DNA of 64,000 nt, from NCBI GenBank assembly GCA_017506865.1, contig JAFCMP010000550.1, positions 372,001 to 436,000 of the forward strand, in the 5' to 3' direction. The position numbers and the translations under genes are program-made. This document shows positions 180-63,100 of the stretch, piece after piece; position 1 is the first letter of the stretch, and each line of letters begins with the position of its first letter. The notes beneath the pieces are model-generated. The model was not told where the DNA came from and did no database searches. It was given only the letters and a program-made list of their open reading frames with translations. Source of the stretch: Tribonema minus. Taxonomy: Eukaryota; Sar; Xanthophyceae; Tribonematales; Tribonemataceae.

Positions 180-3100
180 ATGAGCTTTGCCTCGCTACAC
201 GTTCCCGACTCACTCTGGACCTGTGCACACTTCTTCTCTGCCTTCTCAGACTCTGAGTCACCGGAGACCGCCGAGTCACCGGAGAACATCCACGAGTCAC
301 CGCACGAGTCAGCGGCCGCCGCAGACGAGGTGCCCCAGTCCGTGGTCGCGGAGGTTCCCCAGTCCCACACCGTGCTTCTCCCGCAGAGCGTGCCTGCCTC
401 TCTGGAGCAGCCCACGGGCATGTTCCTGGGAAAGCGCGGCTGCTCCTGGGAGGCGGACGGGCAGGCCGCGCCAGGCGCCATGCGCGTGCGCAAGCGCTCG
501 AGAGGGTCGCTCGTGCCCATGCTCACCAAGGAGCGTGAGGTGAGAAAATGAAGTTATGTGAAGTGACGCTCCAATGCACTTGAAGTGAAGTATAGCCGTG
601 CGCAAGTGCTCCAGGGGGTCGCTCGTGCCCATGCTCACCCAGGGAGCGCGAGGTTGGGGCGCGGGTTTGAAGTTATGCGAAGTGGCGCTACAATGCATTT
701 GAAGTGAAGTACAGGGACTGCGGCGGTGGTATGTCAGTGTCGTGTGGTGCACACGGCTGCCAAGCTGCCCACGCCTTCGCGCGTGGCACTGCTGGGCGTT
801 CTGGTGTCCAGATGCCCAGGGAATAGCAGGCAGTAGGCATTTGGCAGCAGGGGTCCACGCCCACGCCTGCGGCGCTGTAGAGCGTGGTTCAATAACTTGA
901 AGTTCTTTGTGACAGGCACGCCTCTGCGAATACGCCTCCACATCGCACATGATGAGTGTTGGCTGAGAGCTGGGACAAGGCGCTTGGGCGCTCACCATGC
1001 ACTACGGTTCATCAAGCGTTTGCAACTTCATGCGGGGTCGCTGGTGCCAATGTGCAGATGCTCAGGTACAGACCCTGATCTGCCGCACTTGCATACCTGA
1101 ACCGCTCGTTCGCAAGCAGTTTCTGATGCCATGTGCTGTTGTTTCTGTTTCATTTCCCACCTGCAGGTGCGCTACGAGTGTTCGCTGTGCAAGGAGCACT
1201 ACACGGCCACCATGACCTGTAATCCATGGTGGTCGCTGGTGCGTCACATGTGCCCGAGGTGCAGCCACCAACAGGTGCGTTTATTCTTATGGCTATCACT
1301 GTGTGTCACATCCGTGTGTTTCAAAACTTAATTGTTTGTGTGCAAAGTATGCGTTGGGAGATGTCCCTGGGTGGGTACCAGTGTGATCAGAGTGCAATCA
1401 TCAGTCACTTGCTGCGGCCTTGACTTAGTCACCCGCAGTATTTGTGCTGGCCATGGTGAGGGCTTCCGTGCATGCAGTTGTCTTCACAACACCATGTGCC
1501 CCATTGCATGTTTTGTTGTGTACATACACAAAAGAAAAACATGCAACTGTATTCAGAGCCTTGCTAACGTAGCCTCACCCAGGCCGATGTGGTGCTACGC
1601 TCACGTCTTGTAGCCTTCCTCGAGTGTTACTGCTCCCGTTTGTGTTTTTCTTGGCTGCACTGAGATGCCACCGCCGTTTTACGCAGACTGATGACATTGT
1701 GACAGTTCATGACACCGCCGCCCAGCTTCAACTCTCACTCGTTCGACACCTATGGTGACGTGCCTCTGAACCTCACCTCTCTCTGTTTGTGGTGACGTTC
1801 CTCTGCAGGTGCCGCGCATCGACATCTCCCTGCCGGTCAACAGCGTCGATCATCATGCTCAGGTGGGCTGCCGAGCCTGTCATTTGTCAACACTTTGGAC
1901 TCGTTCCTGTGGCATCAATGCCGGAGCCTGCTCTGATGTTGACTGGGCATTTGGCTGGTGCATAGCTATAGACAGACAGGCCGGCGCGCCGATAGAACTT
2001 TGTGGCTGCCGATGCATGCACTTAAGAGAGCATCTATGTCGATGCATACATACACTAGCTCACTCAAGGTGCCGCGGCTTGCATGTGTCTAGCCTGGTAT
2101 CAATTTTCTTTGGAGGCTTTGAACAGTGATGCCCCAACAGTGCTGACTTCACATGGCGCACATGAGAGCAGCGCAATTTGACCTGCAGTGGCACTGCATG
2201 GGTGTCTCTGTGTTCTGTAGCAGGCACTCAGGGGGTGTCATCTTGACAGCTCGCCATTGCTGAGTGCTGCCTCGGTTATGCGCGAGCACTTCCCCACCAC
2301 AGTATAGCACCCAGTGCTTCATTGCCTTATCAGAGCTGTTCTGGCTTCTACTATGTGGCAGGTGCTCAGCGCGTGTGCCGACGACAGCGACGCCGAGGGC
2401 GACACGGACGATGGCGAGGACTCTGAGGACGAGGAGGAGGTAATTGATTGAAATTCACAAAGTTGAATCATGCGTTTGACTTTGTAAAAAAAAGACTGGC
2501 TTCAGGGTGGCAGAGCATGAAGAACGAAGACAAGACCCGCTTGTGTGTCATGGGAGGTCGCAGCGCCAATCAGTCAGGCACGAAAGATAAGGGCAAAGAG
2601 CATGAATGGCTACCCTTTGGTGCATTGCGTGTGGCACGGTCATGTTTGCAAAGCATTCAGCTTCAAGGTCTGTGCTTCTTGCTAGATGCACGCATGGAGC
2701 GGAACACGCCGTTTGGTGCCAGTCAGAGTTGAAGTGTAGGATGCTTCTTGCGCAACGTGATGGTCCAATGCCACGTCAGCGTGATCTTCACATGTACACT
2801 GCCTCTTCACCAAAAGCACACCCTCGCCGTGCTGTTGCAGGATGACCTTGGGGAGGGGCCTCAGCTGGAGGCCGGGCAGGCCGCCAAGCTGCTAGTCCTC
2901 ATGGGGCACGCCAGGGACTGCCCAGGCCAACACGCAGACCCCAGGCATGCCGAGGTGAGCGGCAGCGCAGGGCAGTGTGCATGATGGCTCTCAGTATGGC
3001 CGAGAGCAATGACATCAAGCTTCTGGTGCTACGGGCCACTGCAGTGATTTCTTACCCAGGCCAGCTCGCAGACCTGATGACTGAGGACGTGCGTGAGCCA

Positions 3101-4673
3101 CTCTTGCCTGACTTGAAGTAATGCGGTACTGGTAATGAGGTCGCCAATGCGCATATGCGTGCACTCTGTGCCGTTGGCGTGGAGCGATGGACAGACATCA
3201 TGTGAGACATGGGGTGTCTTGAGGTAGAGTGTTGAAGAGAATAGTCTTCTCTTTACCTTTGCGTACCGTCCTTTTGAAAGGCTAGCATACGGCATTGGTA
3301 GACCACATTGTCGCTCTTCTTTTTCATCCAGTGCGCTGGCAGGCACAACTTACTGCCTTCACAAGAACTATGGATGGCGGGCTGCGCTGTTCTCGAAGTG
3401 AGCGTGACGCGGCTTTATTGATGATGATGATGATCATCCATCGCATCTGTTACGTGTTGAAATGGATGAACTTCAGCAGGCGCCTGCAGTCGCTGTGACG
3501 TGCGCTTGATGGCCAACGGACACTGCTTGTGCCGTTGTGCTCTTGTGTTTGCAATCAGGTCTGCCGCAGCACCAAGTTCCTCATGCTGCACATCAGGGAC
3601 TGCAATGGCTTTGCCCCGCCCTCAGGTACAGCTTTTGCCACTTGAGCACCGTGACATAGTTGACGTATATGTGTGTTTCAGCTTACAAAGCAGAATGGAC
3701 ATTTTACAGTCTGTTGCATGGGCCTGCATGTGCTCCGAGTCATTGTGTCATGTACCACGAGTGTAGATGGTGCACCTGTAACGGCCACAACATTGACTTC
3801 GTGCGTTACATGATTGCGAGTTTTGTGGTAGCTGAAGTGCCGCCACACTGCGCATGCCAGGTACTTGAAGTACTCACGCACCCATACAGCATGCGCAGGT
3901 TCGAGCTCTTGCATCACCTGACGTCTATCTCTGCCACAACATGACGCACAGGCATATTTTTGCATGCACTGTCATCGCATCGGCTCAAAAGCAGTCGTAC
4001 CGCTAACTGCAGAATCAGACTCCATGCTGGCGCACCCCCCCCCCCCCCGGTCATGCTGGGGGTAACCCCCCCCAGTCAAGCCCCCCCGCCCCCCCCCCCT
4101 TCCCGCTCCTCATGTCGCTCCCCCCTCTCTGATGCCCCGTCAGGCATCGCCGGCGAGCGGCGCCAGCCATGCGCGCACCCCTGGTGCAAGCCCTGCAGGA
4201 ACCTGCTGTACCACCTGGTCAAGTGCCCCGCCCCCTCGGGCTGCGCCATCTGCAACCCCCTGGACCTGCCCGAGCCGCTCAAGCAGCTGCGCGTGCTCAA
4301 CGAGAGCATACGCTGCGCGGTGCGCTGCGGCAGCGCTCAGCCTACTGTGGCAGCAGCGGCGGCGGCGGCGGCGCAGGAGCACAGCGCCGCCTGCCTCCAC
4401 CAACACCACCTTGACCACTACGCTGCGTCACAGCTGCAGCAGCAGCAGGCGCTCGCATACCAGCAGGCGTCGTACGCGCATACGTACGCGCCGCCGGCGC
4501 CGCCGCAGGACGCAGCTGTTGGTCAGCAGCAGCAGCAGCAGCAGCTGGTCAAGCAGGAGCTGGAGCTGGAGCTGCAGCAGCAGCAGTGGACGCTGGCGCC
4601 GTCGTGCGGCCAGGCCGCTACGCTGGGCGAGCCCACCGCTACAGCGCCCGCCCCCGCCTCCGCCGGCTACTAA
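180..4673 (+). CDS. TAZ-type zinc-finger protein with N-terminal zinc ribbon, 7 exons
   Basis: Exons read as 180-539, 1167-1274, 1809-1862, 2362-2439, 2841-2954, 3559-3625 and 4144-4673, all with GT-AG introns and matching phases, giving about 437 residues. Exon 2 encodes a zinc ribbon (CSLC, then CPRC) with NPWWSLVRH between. Exon 3 encodes VPRIDISLPVNSV and exon 4 a very acidic linker. Exons 5-7 encode a TAZ-like finger: GHARDC, HIRDC, then CAHPWCKPC, LLYHLVKC and CAIC, the spacing of CBP/p300 TAZ domains. The tail is rich in Ala and Gln and ends in GY. TAZ domains bind activation domains of transcription factors, so a nuclear regulatory role is inferred from the family. I recall the ribbon-PRIDIS-TAZ order from protist proteins but could not check it. 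The ATG at 180 is the first in frame; the basic stretch RVRKRSR near residue 103 could be a nuclear localisation signal. No acetyltransferase domain is present. Confidence 0.82.
486..714 (+). repeat. Tandem duplication of exon 1 end plus 5' splice site (TAZ gene)
   Basis: Two copies of about 112 bp lie at 486-597 and 598-714. The first spans the last 54 bases of exon 1, the donor and the start of intron 1. The second, wholly intronic, repeats the exon end (gtcgctcgtgcccatgctca in both) and a decayed donor (gaggttgggg instead of gaggtgagaa), followed by the same gaagttatg and cacttgaagtgaagta blocks. Confidence 0.85.
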
Positions 4674-5305
4674 GAGAGCGCGCAGCATCAGCAGCAGCGG
4701 CGGCGTCTCATCCCGTGTCCAGCAACATACCAACACCAGCAGCAGCAGCGGCGACCGTCGTTTCGGCGGCCGCGGCTGTGTCGACAAGCCCACCCTGGGC
4801 AGCAGCGTCGGGCCGCAAGCCCGGCGCTCGCATTAACCGCGGAGGAGAAGGAGAGAAGAGCGACCCTCGGAGCGTTTTACTCTAACCTTATCGTCTTCTA
4901 CCCTACCTACCCCCCCCCCCCCCCCCCCCCAACTTAATCAGCGCTTCAGCAGCAGCGCGCTATGGGCTACAGCGAGGGCTATTCACCCTCACCCTAGGCC
5001 AGGCCAACAGCGGCGCCGGCAGCGCCGTCGCAGTGGGGGTACATGCGTACATACCCCTGCTGAGCCGTGCGCACGGCGCCAGCACACCGTCCCACGGATG
5101 GAGGCAGAGACTGGAGAGCGATGCCTACAGTCTCGAATTTCCTCTGGTCTTTGTCTACCTCCGTGACACAGTTATCTACACCTGGCATTCCGCTGCATTC
5201 AGGAATGGCTCAGCAGCAAGAAACAGCAACTTGCATTTGCAGCATTTTTCTCAGGCTAGCAGGGCCCCTCCCCCCCTCCCCTCCCAACCATATGGGTGGG
5301 GGAGT
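4674..5305. other. 3' flank of the TAZ gene; no gene seen
   Basis: This stretch follows the TAA stop and is probably 3' untranslated sequence. It holds a run of about 20 C at 4911-4930 and GC-rich CAG-like sequence. No second open frame shows family similarity. I see no clear polyadenylation signal. Confidence 0.5.
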
Positions 5306-8300
5306 GGGGGGGTGCAATGTCTTGCGTGCCCGCCTTGTTCGGCGGGTACCGCCTTTTTGTACCAGTAGAGTAATTGTTGTTCGCAACTGGGGGGTGGTCG
5401 AAGGGGGTTTCAGTTGTAGTGTTAGTGCCCGTGCAGGTCTCACATGAAAAAAAAAACGAGAGTCGTGATAGCGGTCCCACACTGTCCCAGTCAAATGCGC
5501 GCGCACGCTTCGTAAGTACCCCCGGAAGCTCATGTATTCGACTATACCATATACGGGCTGTAGGTGGGGATTCAGGATTCCAGTTTCAGATCTGCCAGGG
5601 TTCTGCTCATAAGATAACATAAGTGTGTGGGTGGGTGCGGTAACACCGAGCTGACATGCTTTTCGGGGGCCGATGCGCGCCACTGCCACATCTGTCACAA
5701 TGCGCGGCCTCCCGTTTCACTGGTGCGTGCTACGCCTGCCTTTAGACACTTATAGCTAGTGACCATACATGAGACTACAGGGCTAGGGGACATGAATGTG
5801 TCGGCTATCGCTGCTGCTGCTGTGCACTGCTGTTCACATGTCTGCTCTGTATGGGCTTGAAGCTTTGAGGTTCTACATTGTGTGGCGTGTAGTATCACAT
5901 TGTGTGAATGCTTCTGGAACAGACTGCTGCGACTGTTTGGCCATCTTGATGATCTGGTTTGAAATACTGCACGACATGTGCACAACACACAGCGCCTCTT
6001 GGGGTTAAAGTAGGAATGCTTGCTCCTCTGAGGCCCGTGCTCAGGCTGTAGAAATGCCCATTGCTGATGACTCAACTCTCGTCACACAATGACGCAGTAT
6101 GCACTGCTTACACACCACACACGAGCCCCACCATACCAACTACAGACTGGTTGGTGGCCAGTGATGGTTGCACCACACGAGAGCTGACTGTTTTGTTGCC
6201 GCACAGACAAAGCCCCCAGTACCACGCGGACCCCATCCCAAACATACAATGGGGGCCCCGAACTGGGATCTTTGGAGCTCGTTTTGAGGCGTGGGAGGCA
6301 CTGGTTGCCAGGCACTGGCACTAGAATATATCACTCTGAGTCACTCAACCCCACCACGTTCAGATTACTCGAGTCGACAGGGCCACCGACTCCATTCTGA
6401 CTCCATCCCAGAGATAGCGCACTCCTTGGTAATTTGACAAGGGAGTGCGCTGGACGAAAGAAAGCAACATATGACCCTTACCATGTGACAAATGGCACCA
6501 TTGCTGGCAAGGGACTTTGGCAACATTTGCCTACATCAAGAGAGGAGGGTTAGGGTTAGGTTGCTGCAGACAACTAGCCGAAGCGTTGATGTTCCTCCAA
6601 TATGGACAGCTATGCTGCTGGGGTAGGGGAGACGCATTGGCCCAGCATGACAACGGCCGTGATCTTGGGCCTGTCTGCCATTCATCCAGGATCATTCGAA
6701 TGGCTGGAACACGCAGAGTTCAAGGGGCGCCTTCACATTGTACTCTGAAAGCGGGAGGAAAACAAACGTGCTACGTGGTGCAAGACTTGCTCAGCGTCCT
6801 GTCTTGATCATCACAGCCATTGCGTTCATGATAGGATTGAATTTGATTGATGACGTCATCACAGACATCCGTGTGCACACGACGTGTGCCAAAATTGTTT
6901 GCTTTCAGGTGTGTCATCAGCTTTGCGGGGACAGGCAAATTCAGCACACCAATGTCATGCAAACTTATGCAGACGTACCGCGGGCTGCATATGTCATGAA
7001 GCTGGGACAGGCTGAGTGTTGACTATATGACCGCCGCAAAAGCTACTTGCGCAAACGTCACCCAAGCAACAAGCAAAGCACTGTGTCACGAGAATCTCAT
7101 GTCACACACACAGCACAAGCAAGTTCAGCACCAGCGCAACACAGGAAGAACCTCATCTGCAAAGCAGCGCACAGTGATGCGTTGGTTTGCTATTGGCAAC
7201 CAGCTGTGCATGTATATTGTACCCACAACTGTCACCTGCAAAGCATGCGTACCAGTATACTTGAGCGCCACGTTTGTGTTTAACATTGCCAGGCTCTTTT
7301 GCTCAATGCATATATTGAGAACAACTCGTGGTGTGCTGCTGCCAGTAGGCACTGTGTTGAATGATGAAGCCCGCAGCTTTGCTGGTGGGAATGTGTATGA
7401 AAGAGCCATCCGCACAAAGCGCAGGCCAAAACTATCAATAAATCGCAACAGAGCCCCATGTGGCAGTAGACCCATGTCTCTAAAGTGGCCAAGGCCAACA
7501 CCCAGTCATGTCGAACACTAGAAAATTGTGCAGTGCAGGCCCCTCAGTCTAGAAGCAGAAAAGCAGCGCCCGCAAACGGCCCACCCCCTCTCCTGTGTGT
7601 TGCTCTGCCTTGCAGTGACCGCACCTAGGTGACGGGCTGCTTCGAAGTCTCATTCTAGGAAGCCCCCCATGCCAGTAACAACCTCTACATCCAGGGCTGT
7701 CAAATGGAGCTGGCAGCGTGCCACGTGTGGCGGCGGCAGCAAAGACCCCCTACAGCAGCTGCCTCAGGCCGAGGCCGTTGAGAGCGTTCAGGAGGTCAGT
7801 GATCTGAGACAGGGAGAAGCCCCCTAGGCTGAGGCTACCACCACCGAGCAGGCCACACAGCACATCGCCCAGAAGGCCCACCTGACCGGTCACATCCTGC
7901 GTAACACCAGGAACGGGGGGGGGGGGGGGTGCACGTGTTGAAAGTTGACCAGCCTGAGGTTGTAGGATCGCCGAGATGACGACTCAAGTAGCGACTAAGG
8001 AGCGAGCTGGCTAGTTGCTTTTTGCCGTAAAGGGTAGATTACTGGAGAATCACTACTAAACATCGGAGGCTGTAGGGCGCAGCGGTGTGCGACATTGAGG
8101 CAGGCTGCCAGGTCGCGTGGCACACTTCACTGAGTGGCAAGTGGCTTCTATTACACTGGCATAAAAGTTACATCACAACAAATCACCAGATGTAAAACTG
8201 TCAGTGACTTGCTTGTCCATTGCCATTGATGGTGGTGGCAGCTAGTAGGTCGTGGAAGATCTCCGCAGCAACTTACTTCCTCAAGCAATTGTTTCCAAGC

Positions 8301-8685
8301 AATTTGCGCTGGCTCGCGGTTCCTCATACTACAGGTGATGCTAAGTCATCTGCCAGCATGATTACACTCAAGGCATCGCAAATTGTCTTATGTCGATACC
8401 GCATTAGACTCTGCATATGGTGTAAGGATGCACAAAAGAAGGGCCAAGGCTGCACCCTATCGGCCACATGCAATTGGATGGGTCAAGATGCCATATCTTA
8501 GCCTTCAGTTGCGGTCAGAGGGTACAAACTCAGCAGCTGCTGACCCTCAGGTTGCTGCAAAACTTCCGCCGCGCAGCAAGGTTTAGGGGTTCTGCCATCA
8601 TCTACTAGATTCAATTTGGTGAAACAGACTGTTTTGCCAGCACATTACCTGCTTGCAGTGCAGTGTGTCGGACTGTGAGCATCTC
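5306..8685. repeat. 3.38 kb segmental duplication, copy 1 (probable source)
   Basis: This segment recurs about 8.39 kb downstream at 13695-17076 with roughly 99 % identity by eye; only scattered substitutions and 1-base indels were seen. Copy 1 begins at a seven-G run and ends at catctc. It has no flanking direct repeat and contains the terminal exon (7750-7896) of the secreted-protein gene in its natural place, so it is the likely donor. The rest (5.3-7.7 kb) has no convincing gene: the 164-codon frame at 7027-7521 lacks any recognisable family. A G-run sits near 7915-7929 and a short hairpin at 6416-6452. Confidence 0.93.
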
Positions 8686-13037: not shown

Positions 13038-13146
13038 GCACACCTTGCTAAGCAGGCAGCCAAAGGTGAAGCCCTAATGATAATTCTACTAGAATGAGGT
13101 GGTTGCACACCTTGCCAAGCAGGCAGTCAGTGTGAAGCCCTGATCA
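13038..13146. repeat. Tandem pair of about 42-bp repeats, period about 67 bp
   Basis: The blocks gcacaccttgctaagcaggc and gcacaccttgccaagcaggc, each followed by gtgaagccct, lie about 67 bp apart in the last intron of the Crinkler-type gene. Confidence 0.6.
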
Positions 13147-13395
13147 TAAATCAAACCGCAAGTTGCAAAGCGGTAGTATGATGACCTGGCGCAGCATACT
13201 CGTCCTCAAACTGTGAAGCAATACAACGCACAAGGCTGCTTGCTGACAGATAACTGCTAAGGCGAGAGTTGCCGTATGCCAAGCAGCAAGCAGCAAGCAC
13301 AACTTGAAGGAGCACAGCCAGCCTAGCGTGTCCATCGGCAGCATCAGGGAATGTCCCTGTGGCTAGCTAGTGTGCCAACGCACCCCCTTGCCCCT

Positions 13396-13545: not shown

Positions 13546-13653
13546 ACCCTGAAGGCAGAACAGAAACGGCCCTGCCGCCTGAGGGTGGGCTACTAGTAGA
13601 ATCAAGCCACACATGTTGGCTAGCACTGCAGGTCAAAGCTTAGGAGGACATCG

Positions 13654-13694
13654 CCCAGCTCTGGCATATCTGGCTTTCACAAAGCGACGACAGT
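13654..13694. repeat. 41-bp direct repeat, left flank of inserted duplication
   Basis: The 41 bp starting cccagctctggcatatctgg and ending gcgacgacagt are identical to 17076-17116. The two copies bracket the second copy of the 3.38 kb segment exactly. Confidence 0.95.
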
Positions 13695-16600
13695 GGGGGG
13701 GTGCAATGTCTTGCGTGCCCGCCTTGTTCGGCGGGTACCGCCTTTTTGTACCAGTAGAGTAATTGTTGTTCGCAACTGGGGGGTGGTCGAAGGGGGTTTC
13801 AGTTGTAGTGTTAGTGCCCGTGCAGGTCTCACATGAAAAAAAAAACGACAGTCGTGATAGCCGTCCCACACTGTCCCAGTCAAATGCGCGCGCACGCTTC
13901 GTAAGTACCCCCGGAAGCTCCTTTATTCGACTATACTATATACGGGCTGTAGGTGGGGATTCAGGATTCCAGTTTCAGATCTGCCAGGGTTCTGCTCATA
14001 AGATAACATAAGTGTGTGGGTGGGTGCGGTAACACCGAGCTGACATGCTTTTCGGGGGCCGATGCGCGCCACTGCCACATCTGTCACAATGCGCGGCATC
14101 CCGTTTCACTGGTGCGTGCTACGCCTGCCTTTAGACACTTATAGCTAGTGACCACACATGAGACTACAGGGCTAGGGGACATGAATGTGTCGGCTATCGC
14201 TGCTGCTGCTGTGCACTGCTGTTCACATGTCTGCTCTGTATGGGCTTGAAGCTTTGAGGTTCTACATTGTGTGGCGTGTAGTATCACATTGTGTGAATGC
14301 TTCTGGAACAGACTGCTGCGACTGTTTGGCCATCTTGATGATCTGGTTTGAAATACTGCACGACATGTGCACAACACACAGCGCCTCTTGGGGTTAAAGT
14401 AGGAATGCTTGCTCCTCTGAGGCCCGTGCTCAGGCTGTAGAAATGCCCATTGCTGATGACTCAACTCTCGTCACACAATGACGCAGTATGCACTGCTTAC
14501 ACACCACACACGAGCCCCACCATACCAACTACAGACTGGTTGGTGGCCAGTGATGGTTGCACCACACGAGAGCTGACTGTTTTGTTGCCGCACAGACAAA
14601 GCCCCCAGTACCACGCGGACCCCATCCCAAACATACAATGGGGGCCCCGAACTGGGATCTTTGGAGCTCGTTTTGAGGCGTGGGAGGCACTGGTTGCCAG
14701 GCACTGGCAATAGAATGTATCACTCTGAGTCACTCAACCCCACCACGTTCAGATTACTCGAGTCGACAAGGCCACCGACTCCATTCTGACTCCATCCCAA
14801 AGATAGCGCACTCCTTGGTAATTTGACAAGGGAGTGCGCTGGACGAAAGAAAGCAACATATGACCCTTACCATGTGACAAATGGGCACCATTGCTGGCAA
14901 GGGACTTTGGCAACATTTGCCTACATCAAGAGAGGAGGGTTAGGGTTAGGTTGCTGCAGACAACTAGCCGAAGCGTTGATGTTCCTCCAATATGGACAGC
15001 TATGCTGCTGGGGTAGAGGAGACGCATTGGCCCAGCATGACAACGGCCGTGATCTTGGGCCTGTCCGCCATTCATCCAGGATCATTCGAATGGCTGGAAT
15101 ACGCAGAGTTCAAGGGGCGCCTTCACATTGTACTCTGAAAGCGGGAGGAAAACAAACGTGCTATGTGGTGCAAGACTTGCTCAGCGTCCTGTCTTGATCA
15201 TCACAGCCATTGCGTTCATGATAGGATTGAATTTGATTGATGGCGTCATCACAGACATCCGTGTGCACACGACGTGTGCCAATATTGTTTGCTTTCAGGT
15301 GTGTCATCAGCTTTGCGGGGTCAGGCAAATTCAGCACACCAATGTCATGCAAACTTATGCAGACGTACCGCGGGCTGCATATGTCATGAAGCTGGGACAG
15401 GCTGAGTGTTGGCTATATGACCGCCGCAAAAGCTACTTGCGCAAACGTCACCCAAGCAACAAGCAAAGCACTGTGTCACGAGAATCTCATGTCACACACA
15501 CAGCACAAGCAAGTTCAGCACCAGCGCAACACAGGAAGAACCTCATCTGCAAAGCAGCGCACAGTGATGCGTTGGTTTGCTATTGGCAACCAGCTGTGCA
15601 TGTATATTGTACCCACAACTGTCACCTGCAAAGCATGCGTACCAGTATACTTGAGCGCCACGTTTGTGTTTAACATTGCCAGGCTCTTTTGCTCAATGCA
15701 TATATTGAGAACAACTCGTGGTGTGCTGCTGCCAGTGGGCACTGTGTTGAATGATGAAGCCCGCAGCTTTGCTGGTGGGAATGTGTATGAAAGAGCCATC
15801 CGCACAAAGCGCAGGCCAAAACTATCAATAAATCGCAACAGAGCCCCATGTGGCAGTAGACCCATGTCTCTAAAGTGGCCAAGGCCAACACCCAGTCATG
15901 TCGAACACTAGAAAATTGTGCAATGCAGGCCCCTCAGTCTAGAAGCAGAAAAGCAGCGCCCGCAAACGGCCCACCCCCTCTCCTGTGTGTTGCTCTGCCT
16001 TGCAGTGACCGCACCTAGGTGACGGGCTGCTTCGAAGTCTCATTCTAGGAAGCCCCCCATGCCAGTAACAACCTCTACATCCAGGGCTGTCAAATGGAGC
16101 TGGCAGCGTGCCACGTGTGGCGGCGGCAGCAAAGACCCCCTACAGCAGCTGCCTCAGGCCGAGGCCGTTGAGAGCGTTCAGGAGGTCAGTGATCTGAGAC
16201 AGGGAGAAGCCCCCTAGGCTGAGGCTACCACCACCGAGCAGGCCACACAGCACATCGCCCAGAAGGCCCACCTGACCGGTCACATCCTGCGTAACACCAG
16301 GAACGGGGGGGGGGGGGGGTGCACGTGTTGAAAGTTGACCAGCCTGAGGTTGTAGGATCGCCGAGATGACGACTCAAGTAGCGACTAAGGAGCGAGCTGG
16401 CTAGTTGCTTTTTGCCGTAAAGGGTAGATTACTGGAGAATCACTACTAAACATTGGAGGCTGTAGGGCGCAGCGGTGTGCGACATTGAGGCAGACTGCCA
16501 GGTCGCGTGGCACACTTCACTGAGTGGCAAGTGGCTTCTATTACACTGACATAAAAGTTACATCACAACAAATCACCAGATGTAAAACTGTCAGTGACTT

Positions 16601-17076
16601 GCTTGTCCATTGCCATTGATGGTGGTGGCAGCTAGTAGGTCGTGGAAGATCTCCGCAGCAACTTACTTCCTCAAGCAATTGTTTCCAAGCAATTTGCGCT
16701 GGCTCGCGGTTCCTCATACTACAGGTGATGCTAAGTCATCTGCCAGCATGATTACACTCAAGGCATCGCAAATTGTCTTATGTCGATACCGCATTAGACT
16801 CTGCATATGGTGTAAGGATGCACAAAAGAAGGGCCAAGGCTGCACCCTATCGGCCACATGCAATTGGATGGGTCAAGATGCCATATCTTAGCCTTCAGTT
16901 GCGGTCAGAGGGTACAAACTCAGCAGCTGCTGACCCTCAGGTTGCTGCAAAACTTCCGCCGCGCAGCAAGGTTTTAGGGGTTCTGCCACCATCTACTAGA
17001 TTCAATTTGGTGAAACAGACTGTTTTGCCAGCACATTACCTGCTTGCAGTGCAGTGTGTCGGACTGTGAGCATCTC
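13695..17076. repeat. 3.38 kb segmental duplication, copy 2 (inserted)
   Basis: This is a near-identical copy of 5306-8685, bounded by a perfect 41-bp direct repeat that is absent around copy 1. It sits in the last intron of the Crinkler-type gene in the same orientation as the source. It holds no element-like ends, no terminal inverted repeats, no poly(A) tail and no transposase or reverse transcriptase frame. The donor segment was therefore probably pasted into a staggered break. Confidence 0.93.
16140..16286 (-). pseudogene. Orphan copy of secreted-protein terminal exon
   Basis: The sequence is identical to 7750-7896, with acceptor and stop codon, but the signal-peptide and central exons were not copied. 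It lies on the sense strand of the Crinkler-type gene's last intron. If spliced as a cassette it would bring an early stop. Confidence 0.85.
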
Positions 17077-22127: not shown

Positions 22128-22365
22128 ATACGCAGCATCAGCGATGTCGCAGGCGCTGGTAATGCCAAGGCCGCCATGCCGTGTTGGGAGTCGCGCTTGC
22201 TGTAAGGCTGGGCCATTGTACTTGCAAGTGCCCCCCCTGCCCCCCCCCCCCCCCCTTCAGACTCTTTTATTTAGCAAGCAACCACTGCATTGGGGGGTAG
22301 TGTGTGGCAACTAGGGATTTACGGATCTGCATATGATATCAATGACATGTAGAAAACACCCTCAC

Positions 22366-24000: not shown

Positions 24001-24999
24001 GTGTAGAAGCATATGGCATTTACATGAACGCCGTTTGCATGCTTGACGGTTACACTTGCCAAGGACAGACTACAACACATCATTTTTAGTGGCAAACGAC
24101 CAGCGTCAGTATGTTGTTGCATCAGTCTGCCATCAATGATGAGACGACTCGGACAACAGGCATCAGCTGGTTCTGCAGATGCGGCGCAAGAGGCTTTACT
24201 GAGGTTCTGCAACTGTTGGGTCGTGCATCTTGCAACAACTTCGAAACCAGTCAACGCAACCACGACCGGCTGTCCAACAAAGCAGAGAAGGAGGACTCAG
24301 GCTGTAGCGGTAGTATTGCCAACAGCAGCAACTTGAAGGTGCTCATATGAGACAGAACTCCCCAGGCAAAGGTGCAGCGTTCAGAGCTGTAGGTACCATG
24401 ACCACCGCGGCCGCAGGTAATGACACTTGCCGAGGCACGCCGTGCAACCCTGTTGACTTCAAGTTGATGGTTATGCTTACGCTGCAATGAGATGATTTGC
24501 AGCCATAGCAATCAGTGACATAATGACATGAGAAGCACAACAGGTATACTGCCAGATTGCTGCTGCTTGCTAACTCAGTTTTAGGCCCTGATAGTGCGTG
24601 CAAGTCTGCTGACGTTGCGCTGAACGCCATCATGGCACGCTCTAGACTTGTTAGGCGGTCTGTCAATCGCGTTGACAACAGCGCTGTGCAATGCGAGCTG
24701 GTGGTTATAGAGATATATTGGTGGCATGGTGTTAATCACTGATACATGTCAAGATAACTCGAGAAAGCTGCATGCTGTTGCTCCATACACAAGTCTGCAA
24801 TCCCCAGCCGTGTCTCCGCCGCTACATTGCTTATAGAGCATGACACATTGAGGAAGTAGGAGCGGCAGGCGCGCAGATGTTGAACTTGCGTGAAAGCAGC
24901 ATCACTTCACTGCAATAAATGTAAAACGTACCGACACCAAGATGCCCGTAATTGGATGTCGGATTACGTTAAGTCGAAGCACCAGGTCAACTCAATGAT

Positions 25000-25280
25000 A
25001 CTTGAACGCAGAGGCATCACAGCGCACCTGCCAGGGCCTGATAATATAAGCCGTGCAATCGTGGAAAACATGCACCTATAACTATGGACTTATTTATGAG
25101 GATGAAGTAGAATGCCATGGACATGCCGTCAGACCGCTCTTATACTGTGACCGCTCTTAAATCGAGCGCTCTTATATCGTAGCCGTCGCTGTACTTGAAC
25201 TCAGAGGCATCACAGCGCACCTGCCAGGGTCTGATGCTTTAAGCCGTGCAATCATGGAACACATACACCTATCACTTCTG
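25000..25280. repeat. Tandem duplication, about 85 bp, period about 192 bp
   Basis: The block cagaggcatcacagcgcacc through gccgtgcaat and the following cacctat occurs at 25000-25085 and 25192-25275, in the intron after the coiled-coil exon. No exon is recognised inside it. Confidence 0.65.
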
Positions 25281-51100: not shown

Positions 51101-54100
51101 GCTGTGCCCAACGTCTCATGCACGCACGTCCAACTGCATTCGATGACAGGCCTCTAGGTGATAAAGAATGCATCACATTCTTGTCAGCAGCATTGCAGGT
51201 GCCTGCAGCTGCACGCAGGGGTACATGTGCACACTGAATCTTGAGCTAGGAATAGTTCTGCAGATTGCAGTACTTGAAAAGTGTCAGTGTTGAAATGGGT
51301 TTGGCAGTAACGGGTGCCGGCTTCTAGCAGTTCTCACACACTAGGTCAGTATCTGCCTGAGCTTATATGGCATGGCATTACAGGGGGCAGTCCAAAAAGT
51401 GTAATGTGCAAGATTGTTTGCAACTTGTGATGCACATGTGTGAGCAGTGTGACGTGCAAGATTATTTGCAGTTTGTACTACACATGTGCATGCTGCGTCG
51501 CAACATAGTCTATGGTTACGTAAGCAACAGCATGCAGCGTTCTGTACCTCTGCCACCACCCAAAAATGTGTGCACATGTGCCGCAATGGAAAACTTGACA
51601 TCAAGCAGGAAAACACAGCAATGTCGTACCTCTGACACCAGGACGAGCACTTGGAGAGGCACGTCCACCAGAGCTGCAGCGAGATTTGTGCCGGCGCTGC
51701 TTGCAAAGGGACAGCGGAGACAGCGAAGAGCAACACAGAGCATCACCAGATTATTGCCAGCACAGGTGCGGGGGGTTGCTTGTTTTTTTTTACATCCACA
51801 CGTCATTCAGTCGCCTCCTCATAATCGTTTTCTGACACCGAGACCATGCATACGCGGCTGCGGGGGCCGTACTGGTCACCCAGTGCACCTGCAGTTTACA
51901 TGACAGAAGTGCACCTTTAAGTTTCAAGTGCATCTCTCCGCATTGCGTCTTGGACCAGTACACTGACTGTATGTGAGGTCCACGTCCAAGTGCTGCCGAA
52001 GTGAACCAGCTCTCTGCGGCAACACCAAAACGGAGCAACACACTCCCAACATTCGCAATATTCAAGGCGCCTAAATTGGTACAGAGCCCCCAGAGCGCAG
52101 CAGCAACAACTTCAAGTACTTCACCAGTATGTGCTGCACGGTAAGCAGTTTGCTGTAGCTACCTGTAAGTGGCTTGTTGCGTGACCGCCGCGGCCAGCGC
52201 AAAACTGGCACCATGTCCAACGCCCGGGGCTACATTGGTACAAAGCCCTCAGAGCGCAGTAACGATGACCTCGTGTACGTCAGAGTACATGCCTCATAGA
52301 GATTTCAATTACCTGGCTTGTTGCGTGACCGCCGCGGCCAGCGTCTGCACGTCGGGCGTGCGCGCCGCACACCGCGCGGCCTGGCCCACCGCTGCCGCCA
52401 GGAAACGGTGCAGCGGCGCGTGGAACGAGCGCAGCGCCGGCAGCGGCGCCAGCTGCAGCGCGGCGCCGCCGTGCGGGAACACCGGCAGCGGCACCATGCC
52501 GTGGTCGTCAACGCCGGCCTCCGCAGGCGAGGGGGCCTCCACAGGCGGCGGCAGCGCCTCTGCACAGTGCGTAGACATATGGAAAGTGTGTGTGTTGATG
52601 ATGTGAAACGTGGAGGCCGAAGGGTGTAGTGCTTACAGAGTGCTTCAGGGGTCATCGAGCGGTGCATCATGCAATCCTCATGAGAAATCTTGATGCTTTT
52701 CACCGATGACCTTCTCAGGTGCCCATCGAGTCTCTGGGGGGCAACATGGCCAGGAGCAAGGCGCAACATATACACCTGCTACAGCATCATGTAGATACTT
52801 TGAAGTATGCTACAGATGGCAGCAGCACATCAAGACGTGCAAGACCGAGAGGCATGTGCTTCAATGCACACTAAGGCATCCACCTGGCCGGTTTGTCACA
52901 ATTGCGGTTAGAGTTTGTGACATAAAATGACGGTGCCTAGGCGACACATGCACCTGCACCGTTTGCACTAGTTCGTGGTAGCTTGCCTCGCAACAGCTGT
53001 TGAACGCTGTCACACGCTGCTGTGCAGGCATGCGGCATCACCGCCATCATTCCTTCATGGCAACAGTGAGTGCATGCTTTGCGGCATTGATTCGGGCTGG
53101 CCGCCAGTGGTCGGCTCGCCTGAGTTGTTATCTAGCAGCACACTGCTGATAGTAGACTTTGGGAGAGCAACTTGATAACTGCAATTTGTGATTGAACTGA
53201 TGCTTAACGCGGCAGCAGCGCTAGCCTCACAACATCCGACGTGCCTGAAAGCTCCCAAGAGTTTTGACGCACTTCAAACGCTGACCCACCTGCTTGTTGT
53301 TCAGAAGGTGCAGAAAGATCATCGTCCATCATGAGCTGCGCTGACAGCCGCCTGCACCGTATACATACATACATGCAGGCACCAGAACGTACATAAGAAG
53401 CAGCGCCTGGCGTCGGACCGTCATTGGTTCAACAGTGCATCATGCGGCATGCAACTCGGCAGTGCCCGCACAATATGACAGATTGCAGAAGATGAGCCCA
53501 CGACAGAAGCTTTCCGCTGCTTTTTCTCGAGTCAGAATCGCCAAACGAGCAGATTGAGTGTGCTCCATTCTAGTCCTCAGGAACGAAAGCTACCAGCCAC
53601 AGCACACCTGAGCTTGATTCAACAGCAGGGGAAAGTGCAATAGCACGCACACAGTGCTGCTGTCATTGCCACACAGCTTGGCCAACAGGAGACTCAAGCA
53701 ATGTCTGTTGCATCAGCTGACATCCCGTCCTGCGCTTTCCGCAGCGATTAGGTGAGATAACGCAGTCGACTTAATTGCCTGGACGTTGCCTGGACAGCAA
53801 CTGCATGCGTGTGCACTACATTACACTGAGCACTGCCCTCATACATCATATATGCTGAAGGATAGCAACTTGAACCTACATGCTGCAGGTTGCAGTTCGC
53901 ACCCTGATAGGTCAGAGTTTGAAGTAAGTGACACTTGCTGAGTATCATACCACTACTACAAAATTGTATACTTCGAGGTATATGTATACGTAACTAGTTG
54001 TTCGTTTGCATGTTGACAGGTTGCCATGTGAAATGGATAATACTTATTGAATACTTCGAAGTACTTGCATCACACTTCAATTGAAACATTGTATACATAC

Positions 54101-57100
54101 GTACCTAGTGCTGAGCGCTGCCTGAGCAGCCGCCGCGCCCGCGCGCACGCGCAGCCTGGCCTGCGCCTCCTCGTGATGCCGCACTGCCTGTAGGCAGGCG
54201 CGCAGCATGTCCAGAGGGTGCGGCATGCGGCCCGCCTCTGCGCAACAGCGCACCGCAACATGTGACGTCCGTTAGAGACGCATGCGTGCCTGTTGGAGAC
54301 ACAGTGCATATGGGAGTGCGGCATGCGGCCCGCCTCTGCAAAGTAGTCGCAACGGTGCACCGTAACATGTTCGTTAGAGACGCATGCGCGTCTGCTGGAG
54401 ACACAGTGTAGAGGCCTTTTTATATAGTCATTCTGCGCAACAGCGCATCGCAACATGTAACATAGAAATAAATCAAGAGATCGTTGAGCAGCGCACCGCA
54501 ACATGTATACGGAAACAAATCAAGAGATCGTTGAGCTCTAGGTGACAAGGGGTGGTTAGCCGCAAGTGCCTTCCACCAATAACTTCTGTTAGAGACGCAT
54601 GCGTCTGCGCAACTGTGCACCGCATCATGTGACGTCTGTTGAGAGACGCATTGCGTGTCTGCAGGAGACACAGTGCATAGGCCTTATTATGTGGTCATTC
54701 TGCACATGAGCGTACGAACATACACATCGCTGTGCTGCGTGAGTGTTTTGCGGATGCGCGGCGGTAATATGTGACTCGCCTCTGCACGATAGCGCATCAC
54801 AACACAGGATGAGGTTTTACCATGTGACATTTCGCACGTGAGTGTACACGTGAGTCTAATCGAGTCACGTTGGGCATTGTCTGAAGCAACGGAGGTGAAC
54901 AACACTAAGCACACTAGTTGCAATCCTAGCCAGCTTTGATATTGAACCATCATTCAAACTGGCTCACCTGCGTCCTCCTGGGAGATGTGCGCCGGGTAAT
55001 CAATGCCCGCTACAGGGTCGTGCAGCCAGCTGCAACGGCTCAGCAGGCGGGATGGTATGGCAGCAGCAGGCAAAAATGAAAGCACAGGTCAGCGCTCAGC
55101 AAGCTGTACAGCAACAGGCAACATTTAAGCACAGATCAGGGCTCCTCAGCAAAATGTTCTGACGCAGCTGCCAGGACCTGTGCGCAGCTCTGCGTCCAAG
55201 GCACAACAGCCTGCAGCAGAGCTGCTATATGGTACTCTGAGGTACTATCCAGCATCAGAGTGGCTGGTATTGAAGTGCTTTCGAAAAGAGCTTGAGAATT
55301 GACATTGTGCCATCTGCCTACGATTTCCTTGCTTGCATACGTCATTAATAATATCTGGGGGCATCACGACCCTATGCCAAGGTGGCGCTGCCACAACGGC
55401 TCTCTCTCCCAAAGACAAGACCACGCATGTATGTAGACCACTGTCTTCACATGACTCTACGGCTTTCCGCTTGAGACGGAAGTGACCTAATCCTAACCTA
55501 ACCCTAACCCTAACCCTAAGGCAGAGCAACTCCTTTCTCACCTGACAATGAGGTCAAACGCGGAGCACACGGTGATGTTGACGTTGAAGGCGTGGACCCA
55601 GGACCTGTGCTCATACTCCACGTGCGCGTGCGTCTGGCGCCGCTGCCCATCCAAGCCTGGCGGTGGTGCAGAGAAGAGAGATACAGTGAGGCTGAAAGCA
55701 GCACTAGGGCTTAGCACGTGCATGCTTGAATGTGGGTCCCTAACCCTAACCCTATCCCTATCCCTGACCTGGGTCACAATGCTCCTGAAGTGATTCTGAT
55801 GCACCATACAAACCGGCTGAATGCATACTTTCTCTATACGTAAAAGAGGAAGAATACCATCACTTGCCTGTATTCCCGTATACCCCCCTGTGGTTAAACT
55901 AGGTGTGCGTCTGCAGAGCTGGGAGCTACAAGTACAACATTACCACGCTGTGTAGTTGAAGTTTACCTTGAAGTAGCGCCAGGCTCTGTAGCCACAGCTC
56001 GAGGCCCTCCCCTGCAAACTGCCTGGCAATGCCGTCAATGGCCAGAACGCACCGTAGATCGCCAAAGGTGGGCATGTAGCGCCTGCGACCATGGTGATTA
56101 ATTATGGTTTAGTAATGATGAATAATGAGTAACAATGATTAATAATGACCAACAATGATGCTGAATGAATATAATTGATTAATCATGATCGCACAGGGGG
56201 CAGCACGCAGCGCACACAATGTTGCAAACACTTTGGTGCGTCAAGTCTCATCGTGCAAATAAAAATGCAATTGGTGAAGAGCAAACCTGTCAGAACGAAC
56301 AAGTACTGGCGTAGGTACAAGGGCCAATGCGGTCGTTGATGAGCAAACGGCAGAGGTGGCAGCGCGCAGCAATCGCTAGTTGACAGACAATCCGATGCGT
56401 CCCGCCTCCCGCTCTGCAAGATGCAAGAGCAACAGCTGAAGCACAAAGCATGCACACTCAAGTCGAAAGATAAATGAGTAAGTAGTGGTGAATGCAAGAG
56501 CAACAGCTGAAGCACAAAGCATGCACACTCAAGTCGAAAGATAAATGAGTAAGTAGTGGTGAATGCACATAATGCGCTTGCTGTTCAACTACGCCGCAGA
56601 TTGCCAACGGTCGGGTTGTGACAAACAGGTAGCACCAAGCAGCAGCAGCCTGGCAGAGATGTGCTGTTACTGCTACTGCTGCTGCTGCGCTGACGTATCG
56701 TGTCAGAGTTGTACTATCTGGCACCTCAACCAGCATCCAGCAAGCTTTTGAAGTCAGTTCAACAGTAGTGGCAAGACCAATGACAAGACTGTAGCTGCCC
56801 TTGCTCTCTCTAGATGATCAGCACACATGGCATTGAGCTGTTTGAGTGAGTGTTGGCACAAGAATACAGACCGCCACAATGCAGGTGGCAGTGACTCACT
56901 GACCTATACTTGAGCACCAGGGGGTAGTTGTCGGACCCATCCGACGCTTGCGAGAAGTCAAAGCCGGCGATTGGGAACAGGCTATCGTACAGGCACTGCG
57001 CCAGAGTTGGCAGCAGGCCGTTGTGCTGCACGAGGTGCTGGACAAAGGTGCTCCTGTTGAGGAACTGAAGCAACACAGAGACGAAGTACAGTCTTGAAGT

Positions 57101-60100
57101 GAGCGGTGACGCATGTGCATGTGAATCTAGTATTTAGCAGTACTTTCTGGCAGTATTGTCGCCGGCGATACAATACATACGTAGTGAGAAGATGCTCCAG
57201 TCCCGTGTATACACGCTTTGAACCTCTGCCATCGTGGCAGAAACAACGGAAACCTTATCCTGCTGGCAATGTTTCCCAAGCACATCAGACAGACCTACAC
57301 CAGTGTGCACACCACCCACCACCATTGATGTTATGCAAACTCAATGACAATGTATGGTGCAACCGACACCATACCAGACTGACAACATGATGACCATCCT
57401 TTGCATCAGCACTGATGTGATTTTTGAACCATGGCTACAGAACTTCAGGTACTTGCACGCATACAGATGACATGCAGCGCTCATTGCCTGGCCCTGAAAA
57501 AGTCAATTACCTCAACCATTTTGAAGCAATTAAACTTATGACGCCCACAAGCACAAAACGGCTGGACGCTGTGAGGGCGGGGGTCCGCAATGACAACTTG
57601 CGTCCAGTGTCTCACCTGTACACTGAGTACATGAATGCTGCAGTCACCTGGTACACTGAGGGACTGAATGCTGTACTCTGCGCAGTACTCCCTTGTACAC
57701 TGAGTGACCGAAACGCTGTACTCACCTGTACACTGAGTGACTGGATGCTGTACTCTGCGCTGTACTCACCTGTACACTGAGGGACTAGATGCTGTAGTTA
57801 CATGTGCACTGCGTGACAGCATGATGTACTGCATGAAACTCGAGTACGCTTGTGTCCCACCTGTACACTGAGCGACTGAACCCTGTACTCACCTGTACAC
57901 TGAGGGACTGTATGCTGTACTCTGCGACCCCGCGGCCCTCCACGTAGTGCTCCGTGAGCGCGGGCAGCGCACTCACATAGGCCTCTGCAATATCCATCTT
58001 GAAACCGGCGTCGGCCATCAGCGTCAGGTACAGGTCGTGGAGAGCAGCGCTCAGTCTGCAATCGCACACGCATGCAGTGAATTAATTTACCAGTGAATCA
58101 TCAGTTATCGGTTGCAGGAGCGCTGCCGCCTGCTGAGCATCATCAAGTAGTGTGGGGGGCAGCGCTGGTCTGCAGCAGGAGCATTGCCAAGCGCACGTGT
58201 ATGTAATGGCGTCATCACTTCATTTGACGCAGTACTGCCACCTGTTGAGCATCATCATGAAAGCGTCATCGAGTGCATGCATTCATGTGCACCTGCAACA
58301 GCGGTGTCCCCAGTGTGCACTGGCACCCGACAAATGCGAGTAGCTGAGCGGCACGGTGTGGGCATTCGAAGACATGCGCACAAGCTCAGACATGAAGTGC
58401 GCAGAGACATGTACCTATAAGTGGTATACAATACGCCATGCCGCGTGGGCAATCAAACGCGTAAAAGCCAGGGAGCCCACCTCTGTAGCAAACAGAGTCG
58501 AGCACCTGCCTCAAGCACACAACGCTTGGCCGAAGACGCATTGAGCCACCAGGCCCCAAAGGCGCGCATCATGGCCATCAAGCTACAGCAGTTACACAGC
58601 AGTGCTCGTAACTATGGGGTATGCAGGCATGTATGTATGTGCCAACCCTCTTGGCCATCTGTACCTGGGCGGCACGCAGGCGTCCGCTGCCAACAGCACA
58701 TTGCAGCGCTTCAAACAGGCAGTTACAGCCAATGGGGTATGCAGTTGTGTGCATATGTGCGGGACTCAAACTCTAAGAGCTGTCTCGGCTCTCTTTACCC
58801 GCTCGGCAGGTACATGTCCGCGGCCACCAGCACGTTACAGCAGTTACAAGCTGTTGCAGCCAATGCGGCATGCAGGTATGCATGTATGTGTTAAGCTTTC
58901 TGTACCTGCGTGGCAGGTACACGTCCGCGGCCAGCAGCACGTCGAGCTGCGGGCGCTGCAGCTGCTGGCAGATGAGGGCGCACGTCGCGTCGGACACCAG
59001 GCTCAGCTGCGGCAAGGCGTACAAGCACAAGCCATTGCAATGTGACTGAGGTGATCAAGCACGTCGAATGTACAACGAATTCACTGGCGAAGCGCACATT
59101 TGACAGGCTGCAGATGAGGGCGCACGTTGCGTCTGACATCAGGCTCTGTTGCGGGGCGAGGCGTGCAAGCGTCGGCGCTACAGCACGCGAGGACTGATGG
59201 TCATTATGCTCATTTTTGTTGTGGTGAACACGCAGCAGAGAGCACGCAGCGAGGCAGGCGTACAAGCACCGGCGCGACACCACTAGGGGTACAATGTCCT
59301 GGGATATTGCAGTTACATGAACAACGATAACGTGGATGCAAGTTTGACAGGCTACTCCATTCTGTGCTTTGTTGGCGCTTGAAGCATCAACACAAACTGA
59401 CCGTGCAGAGATGAAAGCATGCAGCGAGGTGTACAAGCACGAACCGACGCGAGGGGACTCGAATGACTAAGCACGTCGAACGTATGATCGGTTAACTTGG
59501 CGAAGTGAAGATTTGACAGGCTCTACTCAATTTTGTACGTTGTTGGTGCTTGAAGCGCAAACACCCACCAATCCTGGCCTTTCTTTTGTGTGACCCTCAA
59601 AACCAGGCTCCTCAGCAGGAACACTGGCAAACACACTCCCCGCGGGCACTGTCGCCACTGCAATCATGACGGTTGCTGTCATGAAAGTCAGAAAGATTGC
59701 TGACAAAGGCCTCCCTAGCAGATGCGACGTTGGCATCAGTGACAGCAGAGCAGTCACTGCGCCCAGCAGCAGCCAAACACTAAAATGATAAGGCTGCTGA
59801 ACTTCCTGTGTTGGGCTACCAGCTGGAGCTGGCCTACCGAACACGCGAGACCTTTCCACACTGAACACCCATGCCTCGAACGCTATAAAGCTTGCACACC
59901 GAAGTGTGTTGCTTACTGCGGATATGGTGGCACTATTTGACTCGTGGCCAATTGCCGCAGCAGCGGCGACCACGGTTTTTGGTGAAAGGCATCCAACGGC
60001 TAATCACACCTTGTCACCTACGGTAGAGCTCTATGATCTTTTGATTGGTTTCCATAAATCATGTGGCCCATATAGCCGTTGGCCCTGCGAATACAGTATG

Positions 60101-63100
60101 TATGTATGTATGGACAGCACTCACCTTGTGCAGCCATTTGACCAGCACGTCAGCAAACATGAGGCGCCGCTGCAGCTCCTTTGCGCGTATGGTGGCCTGC
60201 AAGGGAGCAGCGCAACGCATAACATGTGTCCGGGTCGGGGTGTGACAACAAAATCGCGTGCGCCGTCGGTTCAAACCCAAACACAAACATCTGGGTCACA
60301 GTTGCACCAGCTTTTGGCGCATGCCGCTTTGGCACAGCGAACGCTGCACGCCACCAGTGCTCAGTGAGTACGCAGCAGCCCAGTTTGAGAGCAAGGCGCC
60401 CAAAGATGACAGTGATGTATCTGACGCATGTGTGCATTTCCAGCCCCATCTGACACAGTCATAGCGTGCCTGAGCCTGGCAGCCCAGAATACGAGCAAGA
60501 AAGGGGCGAAGCGGAACATACAGTGATTTGCCATAGACTACCCCGCAGAAGGTCTACATCAGGGCCACCATACGCCTGCCAGGCATGATGCACTGTGCAA
60601 GCACCCTCGGCATTAGAGACTTGAATTGTGGCGCATATCGGTCAAGACCCAACATCAACTTGAAGATGCTGCGCCATTGTGCAAGGAGCTTTGGGCAGGG
60701 CACAAGCCGCCGCAACAGGTGACGCTCCTTCTGGTTGAAGTTGGCACACGCTTGAGCACTGCTTCAAAACAGGTGACGCTCTATCTGGTTGGCACACGCC
60801 TCAGCACTGCTTCACGTGCTCTCACCATGAACGTCCGCCGAGTCATCTCTTTGGCCAATGCGACCATGCGGTCGTAGTGGCTTTCGCCAGCCGAGCCCTC
60901 TGGCAGCAGGCTCTTTGAGGCGTAGCTCTCGCCATTGTTCCGGAAGTCTGCTGACATTTGACTGCATGAAGCGCATCACCAGTGCCAAAAGCCAGAAAGC
61001 ATCAGAAGTTGTGAGATTTGACTGCATAGAGCGCAGAACCAGTGCCAACACACAGAAGCCGGTGAGCGTTGCAACGGCGTAGAGCCCCATACTCGAACCA
61101 AACAGTCCTGCTGATGCGAATACCCGCAGTAGGTACAGTATTCTCAAGCGCTGTAGTGACTGTAGTGCATGTGATCAAGATTCTGTTGTGCCCTCCTTCA
61201 AAAGCAGGCTGCTGGTCCTGCAAATGCTGACCTGTGAATGCACTAGTGGTCTGAACTCACATTTTGCGAAATATAGCAGCATGGTCACAGCTACGTGACC
61301 AGCACCGTCGAATGTCACTGAACGACGCTCCCAGCACTAAACACACTGGCTGTGTGAATGCACTCTCCAAGCCCCCTTGACGTGCACATGTACTGCACAT
61401 GTACTGCGCATGTACTGCACAGGTGCTGCACAAGTACAGGTGGGCCATGTATATACATACATACATACACATGTAGAATGACCGCAACATGTGTGACGTC
61501 GTGGATGACAAAGCGAGTCCATTGCCATCCGAATGAATGAATGCGCGCCCGTTGATGCACCATTTATAAAAAACATACTTTGAAGCAACAAAAGTCTCCA
61601 TGCAGCCACTGTGGGTACAAACTGTCGTGTGACCGCTTGGCACTCTGCATACGTACGTGGGCTCTCTGTCCATGAGCGCGACTCCGCAGGCCTCAAACTC
61701 CGTCCTGTTGTGCACGTCATCGTGGTGCAGGACCACCACCACGTCGCCGTCGCTGGCGCCGAGCGCTGGTGTCACACGTTGAGCAATGACACATTTGCAT
61801 TGTGAGCACTGACGTGTTTGAGCAGTGTCATGATTCATGAACTGAACATGGGCGATGCTAAGAGACCAAGGCAGAAATGACGAGCAACTGGCGTTGAGCG
61901 CTGTTGCCACATGTTGAGCAATGACACACTTGCATTGTGAGCAGTGGCACGAATGCATGTTGAGCAATGACATGAATTCATCATTGAGCAGAATTCATCA
62001 ATGAACAGCGTCATAAATTCATAAGCAGTTCATCAATGAGCAGTGTCATGAATTCATCATCGTGCAGTGTCATGAATTCAATCATGGGCGATGCTCAGAG
62101 ACCAAGGGGCAAATGATGAGCAATCACACAAACGCATTGTGACCAACATGAGTGAGCGCGTCACGGACCATTGATCCAATGGTAGATCATGAGCAGCGAC
62201 ACACACATGAATTATGAGCGCTGGCATGAATGCGTCACAGAATCAGTGCTCAGAGAGGTGACCACGGACCACGCAGTGCAGTCTGCCACAGCAACTTGGA
62301 CAAACGGACATAATGAGGACGGACATTGGGTGCATGCACCATGGGCAATAGTAGGCGACCAGAGGCAATGCAGTTCAAGGCGACGGAACAGTTGAAGTAT
62401 AACCTCAGGAAGGGGCAGAGAGCAAACGGTGTCAAAGGATGGACTTCAAGTACTTGCGCTCAGCTGCCAGCTGCAGTAGTGCTCTGCTACCGGCCATAGC
62501 TGATGCGTCAACGGAACAAAGGTTGATTGGCACCAGCACTCGCTGCACCATTGAGGTGGGTCAACTTGAAGTACTTCAGCGAAGGCGCATTATCAGGTGA
62601 GGTGGTGTTGCATATAGTGCTCTGCTGCCAATCACAGCTCAGCGGTGATGGCCGACCACAGAATCATACGCATAGCAAGGTACCGAGGGCGTGGGGGGGG
62701 GGGCAGCAGCAGCGCTATCGCTTACTGCATCGTGAGCACTGGTGCCCGCTGCTTTCATGGTACTTCAAGTATATATTTCAATAATCATGTCAAGTGTAGA
62801 CAGTTGATAAAGCACCTTCTGCAAAGGCGCCCTCGGAATGTGCTGCCAGGTCCGCAGAGCTGGGTATCTGGTGCGCGCAGTCCAGCAGAAATCCCACCAC
62901 AACGCTCAGCACGGTCTGAGCGGCAGACCTGCGGCGGTGCATGTCGCAGCAGGTCAGTAAAGCAAGGTGAGCAACGCAACAGTCAGCACACACCAAAGTC
63001 TCTTGTCGAAAGCTTCATACAACGCCAGGTACTAAGGAGGGGGGGGGGGGGGGGGGGGATGTGGCGCACGGCATTGTGGTGCGCCACGTGAGGTGCCGAC

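Follow-up and report, generated by a model that had tools for sequence, protein, structure and literature searches.

Introduction

Intronic minisatellites consist of units of tens to hundreds of base pairs repeated head to tail; they decay neutrally, and a preference for units that cross splice sites is not expected of them. A potato RdRp gene acquired a new intron, supported by RNA reads and by phylogeny, when a single tandem duplication spanned the boundary between an intron and an exon (Ma, Lan and Niu 2016, PMC4974935). The AGGT tandem genomic duplication model holds that a segment inside an exon is duplicated and that the new intron equals one unit (Rogers 1989, via PMC3443670), and introners generate new introns as dispersed elements (PMC9860276). 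Here, we analyze local tandem duplications at exon borders in a 64,000-nucleotide stretch of the Tribonema minus genome (C547:372001-436000; "the window" is this whole stretch) and in genes sampled across the 158.18-Mb assembly (554 contigs). A preliminary description of the window had claimed that exon edges in eight stretches, belonging to three genes, were duplicated in tandem together with the splice site and the adjacent intron and that the extra copies sit in the introns as decaying decoys. We consider it probable that local tandem duplication has recurred in this genome with a bias toward exon edges and has left neutral intronic decoys.

As in the potato gene, the tandem unit includes the intron end, the start of the next exon, and the splice signals (PMC4974935), and direct tandem units holding an exon edge, a splice site, and intron sequence were found here, with 2 of 12 spacers between the aligned copies left unexplained. 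Unlike the single new intron reported in potato, many genes are involved here, donors more than acceptors, and existing introns are enlarged. The AGGT model likewise has a local tandem duplication adding splice-site-like sequence to a gene; its exon-internal unit, however, differs from the units described here, which span existing borders and have an exon part and an intron part in the 44 events examined at exons anchored by domain matches. With introners, the duplications share a repeated change of intron content across the genome, but the copies match the adjacent exon, and the sole unit searched genome-wide is not dispersed. Head-to-tail arrays and neutral decay are features shared with intronic minisatellites, whereas the excess measured at splice sites is not. 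Our literature search, which covered few subscription papers, listed no description of tandem duplications being in excess at exon borders genome-wide.

Tandem duplications at the exon borders of sampled genes

Anchor exons were taken from genome-wide Pfam searches for chaperonins (PF00118, 56 matches), kinesins (PF00225, 132 matches), and dyneins (PF12774, 59 matches). A hidden Markov gene finder was built on 89 anchors, namely, the 43 of the 56 chaperonin and 46 of the 132 kinesin matches that lay on the DNA analyzed; one kinesin match with three internal stops was excluded from these anchors, and 6 anchors in which a stop lay in frame were withheld from the initial training set and retained in the counts. 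The final gene models placed 24,828 of 26,478 anchored bases in the correct frame (93.8%) and 6 in a wrong frame. When the frozen gene finder was applied to the held-out dyneins (58 of the 59 matches), 11,612 of 13,137 bases fell in the correct frame (88%) and 2 in a wrong one. Our duplication detector reported ungapped pairs at a spacing of 25 to 600 bp with a score of at least 18 (match, +1; mismatch, -2), and a splice site was counted as spanned if an aligned copy covered at least 8 bp on each side of it.

Over all sequence analyzed, the detector returned 347 direct local pairs versus 7 inverted pairs under the same scoring, and the inverted pairs spanned 0 of 278 anchored edges. Given this disparity, chance similarity is a negligible source of pairs. 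The underlying process is head-to-tail duplication. Of the anchored sites in the training genes, 19/87 donors and 10/87 acceptors were spanned; the corresponding values for all predicted sites were 64/364 and 48/356, versus 5,578 of 146,677 positions in intron interiors (3.8%). The donor profile peaked at the edge (22/87 spanned 10 bp inside the exon), dropped to 4/80 on the intron side (30 bp) and to 6/86 on the exon side (60 bp), and climbed again 70 to 130 bp into the intron, which is where the decoys are located. Among the held-out dyneins, 9/51 donors and 7/53 acceptors were spanned (interior, 2,014/33,071).

For the pooled count, the window contig was left out and four sites were dropped as decoys that had been counted as exons. 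The pooled values were 25/135 donors and 16/139 acceptors, versus 6,137 of 121,558 interior positions (5.05%), corresponding to ratios of 3.67 for donors (95% confidence interval [CI], 2.61 to 5.25) and 2.28 for acceptors (95% CI, 1.18 to 3.86; bootstrap over 49 loci). Because decoys were themselves counted as interior sequence, these ratios are conservative. When the duplications were rotated along each stretch, the observed donor count was reached in 0 of 5,000 trials for the training genes and in 9 of 5,000 for the dyneins. The border excess in the sampled genes is clear at donors and weaker, or borderline, at acceptors. The recurrent duplication of exon edge, splice site, and intron put forward in the preliminary description is borne out at anchored exons, and the equal frequency away from splice sites that it had named as the sign of ordinary minisatellite turnover was not observed in these genes, clearly so for donors and on a borderline footing for acceptors taken alone.

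Base composition does not account for duplication within introns, since coverage by purely intronic duplications was flat between 40 and 80% G+C (0.015 to 0.023) and was 0.029 in the 30 to 40% class. A TTGAAG-type motif considered as a duplication trigger was rejected, being only mildly enriched near donors.

Structure of the duplicated units and state of the decoys

Among 70 events at predicted edges, the period was 60 to 199 bp in 56 and longer in 14. Of the 44 anchored events, 37 had a period of up to 200 bp; in these, the homologous part had a median length of 46 bp on the exon side and 34 bp on the intron side, and the exon part exceeded 0.6 of the period in 5 of the 37. Such short exon parts suggest either that the units are centered near the border or that decoys with long exon parts are selected against. 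In 10 of 12 cases, three of them barely so, the unaligned spacer was more similar to the sequence flanking the copies on one side than was any of 100 shuffled versions, a likeness that would be expected of tandem duplication with small gaps. In contig C5, one exon end is present in five matched copies, and Pfam matches to the same model positions lie side by side, for example, at C51:21979, 22169, and 22346 (chaperonin), at C511:561699 and 562024 (kinesin), and at C522:1585167 and 1585037 (dynein).

When exons and their decoys were compared, mismatches numbered 79/1,368, 68/1,372, and 204/1,375 at the first, second, and third codon positions, respectively, and 66/738 in the aligned intron part past its first six bases. 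These counts fit a decoy free to diverge and an exon whose changes are mainly synonymous. Among the decoys, the splice dinucleotide was retained at 47/51 donors and 32/40 acceptors; the neutral expectation is ~0.89 at a per-base divergence of 5.5%, and the acceptor share is slightly below it. One decoy in the window reads a stop. Decay of the decoys thus looks neutral, with no clear sign of selection for or against them, in line with the proposal that the extra copies decay within introns.

Explanations for the excess

In the most probable reading, stretches of mostly 60 to 200 bp are often duplicated head to tail in this genome, and where a unit crosses an exon-intron border, the second copy is stranded in the intron as an unselected decoy, while the original exon and its splice site presumably remain in use. 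Successive rounds build arrays and lengthen the intron. Copying may occur by local replication slippage or by template switching at short shared sequences, which fits the overlaps at the ends of near-exact tandem pairs in a tiny sample (n = 11), namely, 5 bp in two intronic pairs and 7 bp in one pair reaching an exon. Some feature of exon borders would, in addition, raise either the rate of duplication there or the chance of retention. It is possible, though we advance it tentatively, that borders, donors in particular, act as hot spots of local tandem duplication and that introns grow and turn over largely through copies of neighboring exon ends, with some aspect of the border (its splicing, transcription, or chromatin) driving the duplication of the DNA. 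One guess as to the reason for the preference would be that polymerases pausing at splice sites collide with replication.

Several points weigh against an edge-biased process. The splice sites are the predictions of our own gene finder and are not RNA based, and the sampled gene families number three. The homologous exon and intron parts together account for only 0.64 of the period (median of the 37 anchored events), and the spacer matched neither flank in the 2 unexplained cases among the 12 inspected. Short overlaps were present in just 3 of the 11 near-exact pairs, two of the three being purely intronic. By rotation, the observed acceptor count was reached in 316 of 5,000 trials (training genes) and 343 of 5,000 trials (dyneins), so that acceptors alone are borderline or not significant. 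Within the window, where the exons are predicted, 8 of 128 edges of exons of at least 30 bp were spanned versus 1,282 of 50,664 nonexon interior positions (2.5%), an excess weaker than that in the sampled genes, and one of the 8 edges (30307) falls in a TCCGAC-type repeat.

The same acceptor and window figures lend some weight to ordinary minisatellite turnover that is uniform along genes, with edges appearing special only because selection removes exonic events and a conserved exon copy keeps old events recognizable. Purely intronic arrays do exist (37 in the first sample, a few of which belong to edge arrays, versus 67 involving exon sequence), so that the association with edges is quantitative rather than exclusive, and one locus of the window (57607-57926) is minisatellite-like. 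However, when exactly these effects were simulated, with uniform tandem duplications on clean introns, conserved exons, decaying decoys and introns, and removal of intolerable events, the donor-to-interior ratio was 0.73 to 1.02 in six settings and 0.85 to 1.14 in five settings with more indels, well short of the observed 3.67. The donor excess was also not reduced among pairs at least 95% identical (8/87 donors, including two pairs of sites sharing an intron, versus 461/88,487). Given that turnover of this kind predicts a density independent of splice sites, which the donors do not display, we regard it as unlikely. It is less likely again that the decoys are retained by selection as alternative or regulatory splice sites. 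The dinucleotide retention of the decoy donors would agree with such a role, but it is near the neutral value, and the acceptors retain slightly less; moreover, the decoys diverge at first and second codon positions, one of them carries the stop noted above, and periods show no significant bias toward or against multiples of three (6/29 and 20/70).

We see little room for the idea that introns are newly arising here, with exonic AGGT-type duplications creating the intron and the visible copies being leftovers. The mechanism itself is documented (PMC3443670), and one border-crossing duplication made a potato intron (PMC4974935). In that model, however, the unit lies within the exon and the intron is one unit, whereas the units here cross existing borders and the copies have intron sequence after them and sit part-way into introns. 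Of the preliminary suggestion that the duplications follow the AGGT route or lengthen introns, the lengthening stands, as the anchored units enlarge existing introns; a new intron was not demonstrated. Slighter still are the chances of a dispersed, introner-like mobile element that brings the repeats with it on insertion close to splice sites. Words of the AACTTCAA type are enriched in noncoding sequence (95 occurrences of AACTTCAA and its complement in introns of the sampled loci versus 6.3 expected) and are present in several units. Against such an element, the motif shows only a mild increase in density near donors, the copies match the adjacent exon, and the window unit at 486-714, the one unit searched genome-wide, has a single place in the assembly.

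Duplications within the 64-kb window

The window was examined with Tandem Repeats Finder, a repeat finder, and our duplication detector, and local direct repeats were present in all eight stretches that the preliminary description had placed at exon borders. Six of the eight coincide with or adjoin a predicted exon edge; of the other two, the stretch at 57600-57915 is a minisatellite that extends into an exon, and the one at 17651-17720 lies off the predicted edges.

On the plus strand, the end of exon 250-539 and the start of its intron are duplicated in tandem at 485-711 (distances of 112 and 119 bp); the donor region differs between the copies, and the ungapped alignment is interrupted around the donor. 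The other events at exon edges are on the minus strand. Two copies cross the donor of exon 35703-35902 (35488-35721; distance of 140 bp, 94 bp aligned at 84%, 19 exon bases), and the acceptor of exon 39851-39997, together with the first part of the exon, is present in three copies at 39952-40441, at distances of 165, 173 to 174, and 338 bp. An exact 30-bp copy of the end of exon 52313-52559 is found in the intron at a distance of 144 bp (52170-52343), with the donor not aligned any longer. The array on the acceptor side of exon 54105-54237 (54218-54703) is mostly intronic and includes ~20 exon bases, and the minisatellite-like array at 57607-57926 extends across the donor of exon 57893-58055 with pair distances of 32 to 245 bp. 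Exon 58906-59006 has both edges copied, the donor side at 58788-58942 (distance of 107 bp) and the acceptor side at 58968-59154 (distance of 142 bp).

Three further copies, each across a predicted acceptor, were absent from the preliminary description: one at exon 25152-25220 (24999-25276; 85 bp, 89%, distance of 193 bp), one at exon 60826-60961 (60952-61048; distance of 60 bp), and one at exon 61657-61765 (61753-61943; distance of 135 bp). The minus-strand 39-bp tandem repeat at 17650-17719, which that description had listed, lies where the gene model has no exon edge. Other repeats away from predicted edges occur at 13038, 13403, 56421, 60714, and 61847-62123. The one at 56421-56567 is a perfect 71-bp two-copy tandem repeat with a 5-bp overlap and is probably a very recent duplication.

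Other features of the window

The large minus-strand gene at ~35 to 63 kb may resemble a UBR-type ubiquitin ligase; Pfam and PDB searches with its joined exons gave no match. A TAZ-like zinc finger in the plus-strand gene around 1167-4673 was rejected as weak (E value, 0.0074, below the Pfam cutoff). Of two further matches obtained, the single photosystem one scored below cutoff, and a U3 RNA one exceeded its cutoff. The segments 5303-8500 and 13692-16890 are direct copies, ~8.4 kb apart, that are 99.2% identical over 3,199 bp (the comparison ended at 8500) and that appear to represent a recent segmental or mobile duplication. A 702-codon open frame on the minus strand at 20148-22256 is very alanine rich and was without match in a Pfam search; our impression is that it looks like the end of a retroelement. 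Tandem TCCGAC-type repeats at 30151-30650 lie in a possible coding stretch, and short internal arrays of the TTAGGG type occur at 41339-41383, 43857-43887, 55485-55519, and 55738-55769. In the noncoding DNA analyzed, TAACCCTA was seen 76 times versus 1.0 expected. Just downstream of the window, L063:7066-7785 encodes ankyrin repeats (Ank_4; E value, 3.3e-10).

Implications

The nearest published case is a single potato intron. In the sampled genes of T. minus, nearly one in five anchored donors has a recognizable decoy, which gives many datable events, and the decoys can keep older synonymous states of conserved exons. A genome this rich in decoys would help to address how introns become longer, how near-perfect neighboring sites escape the spliceosome, and whether new introns can originate from duplications at borders.

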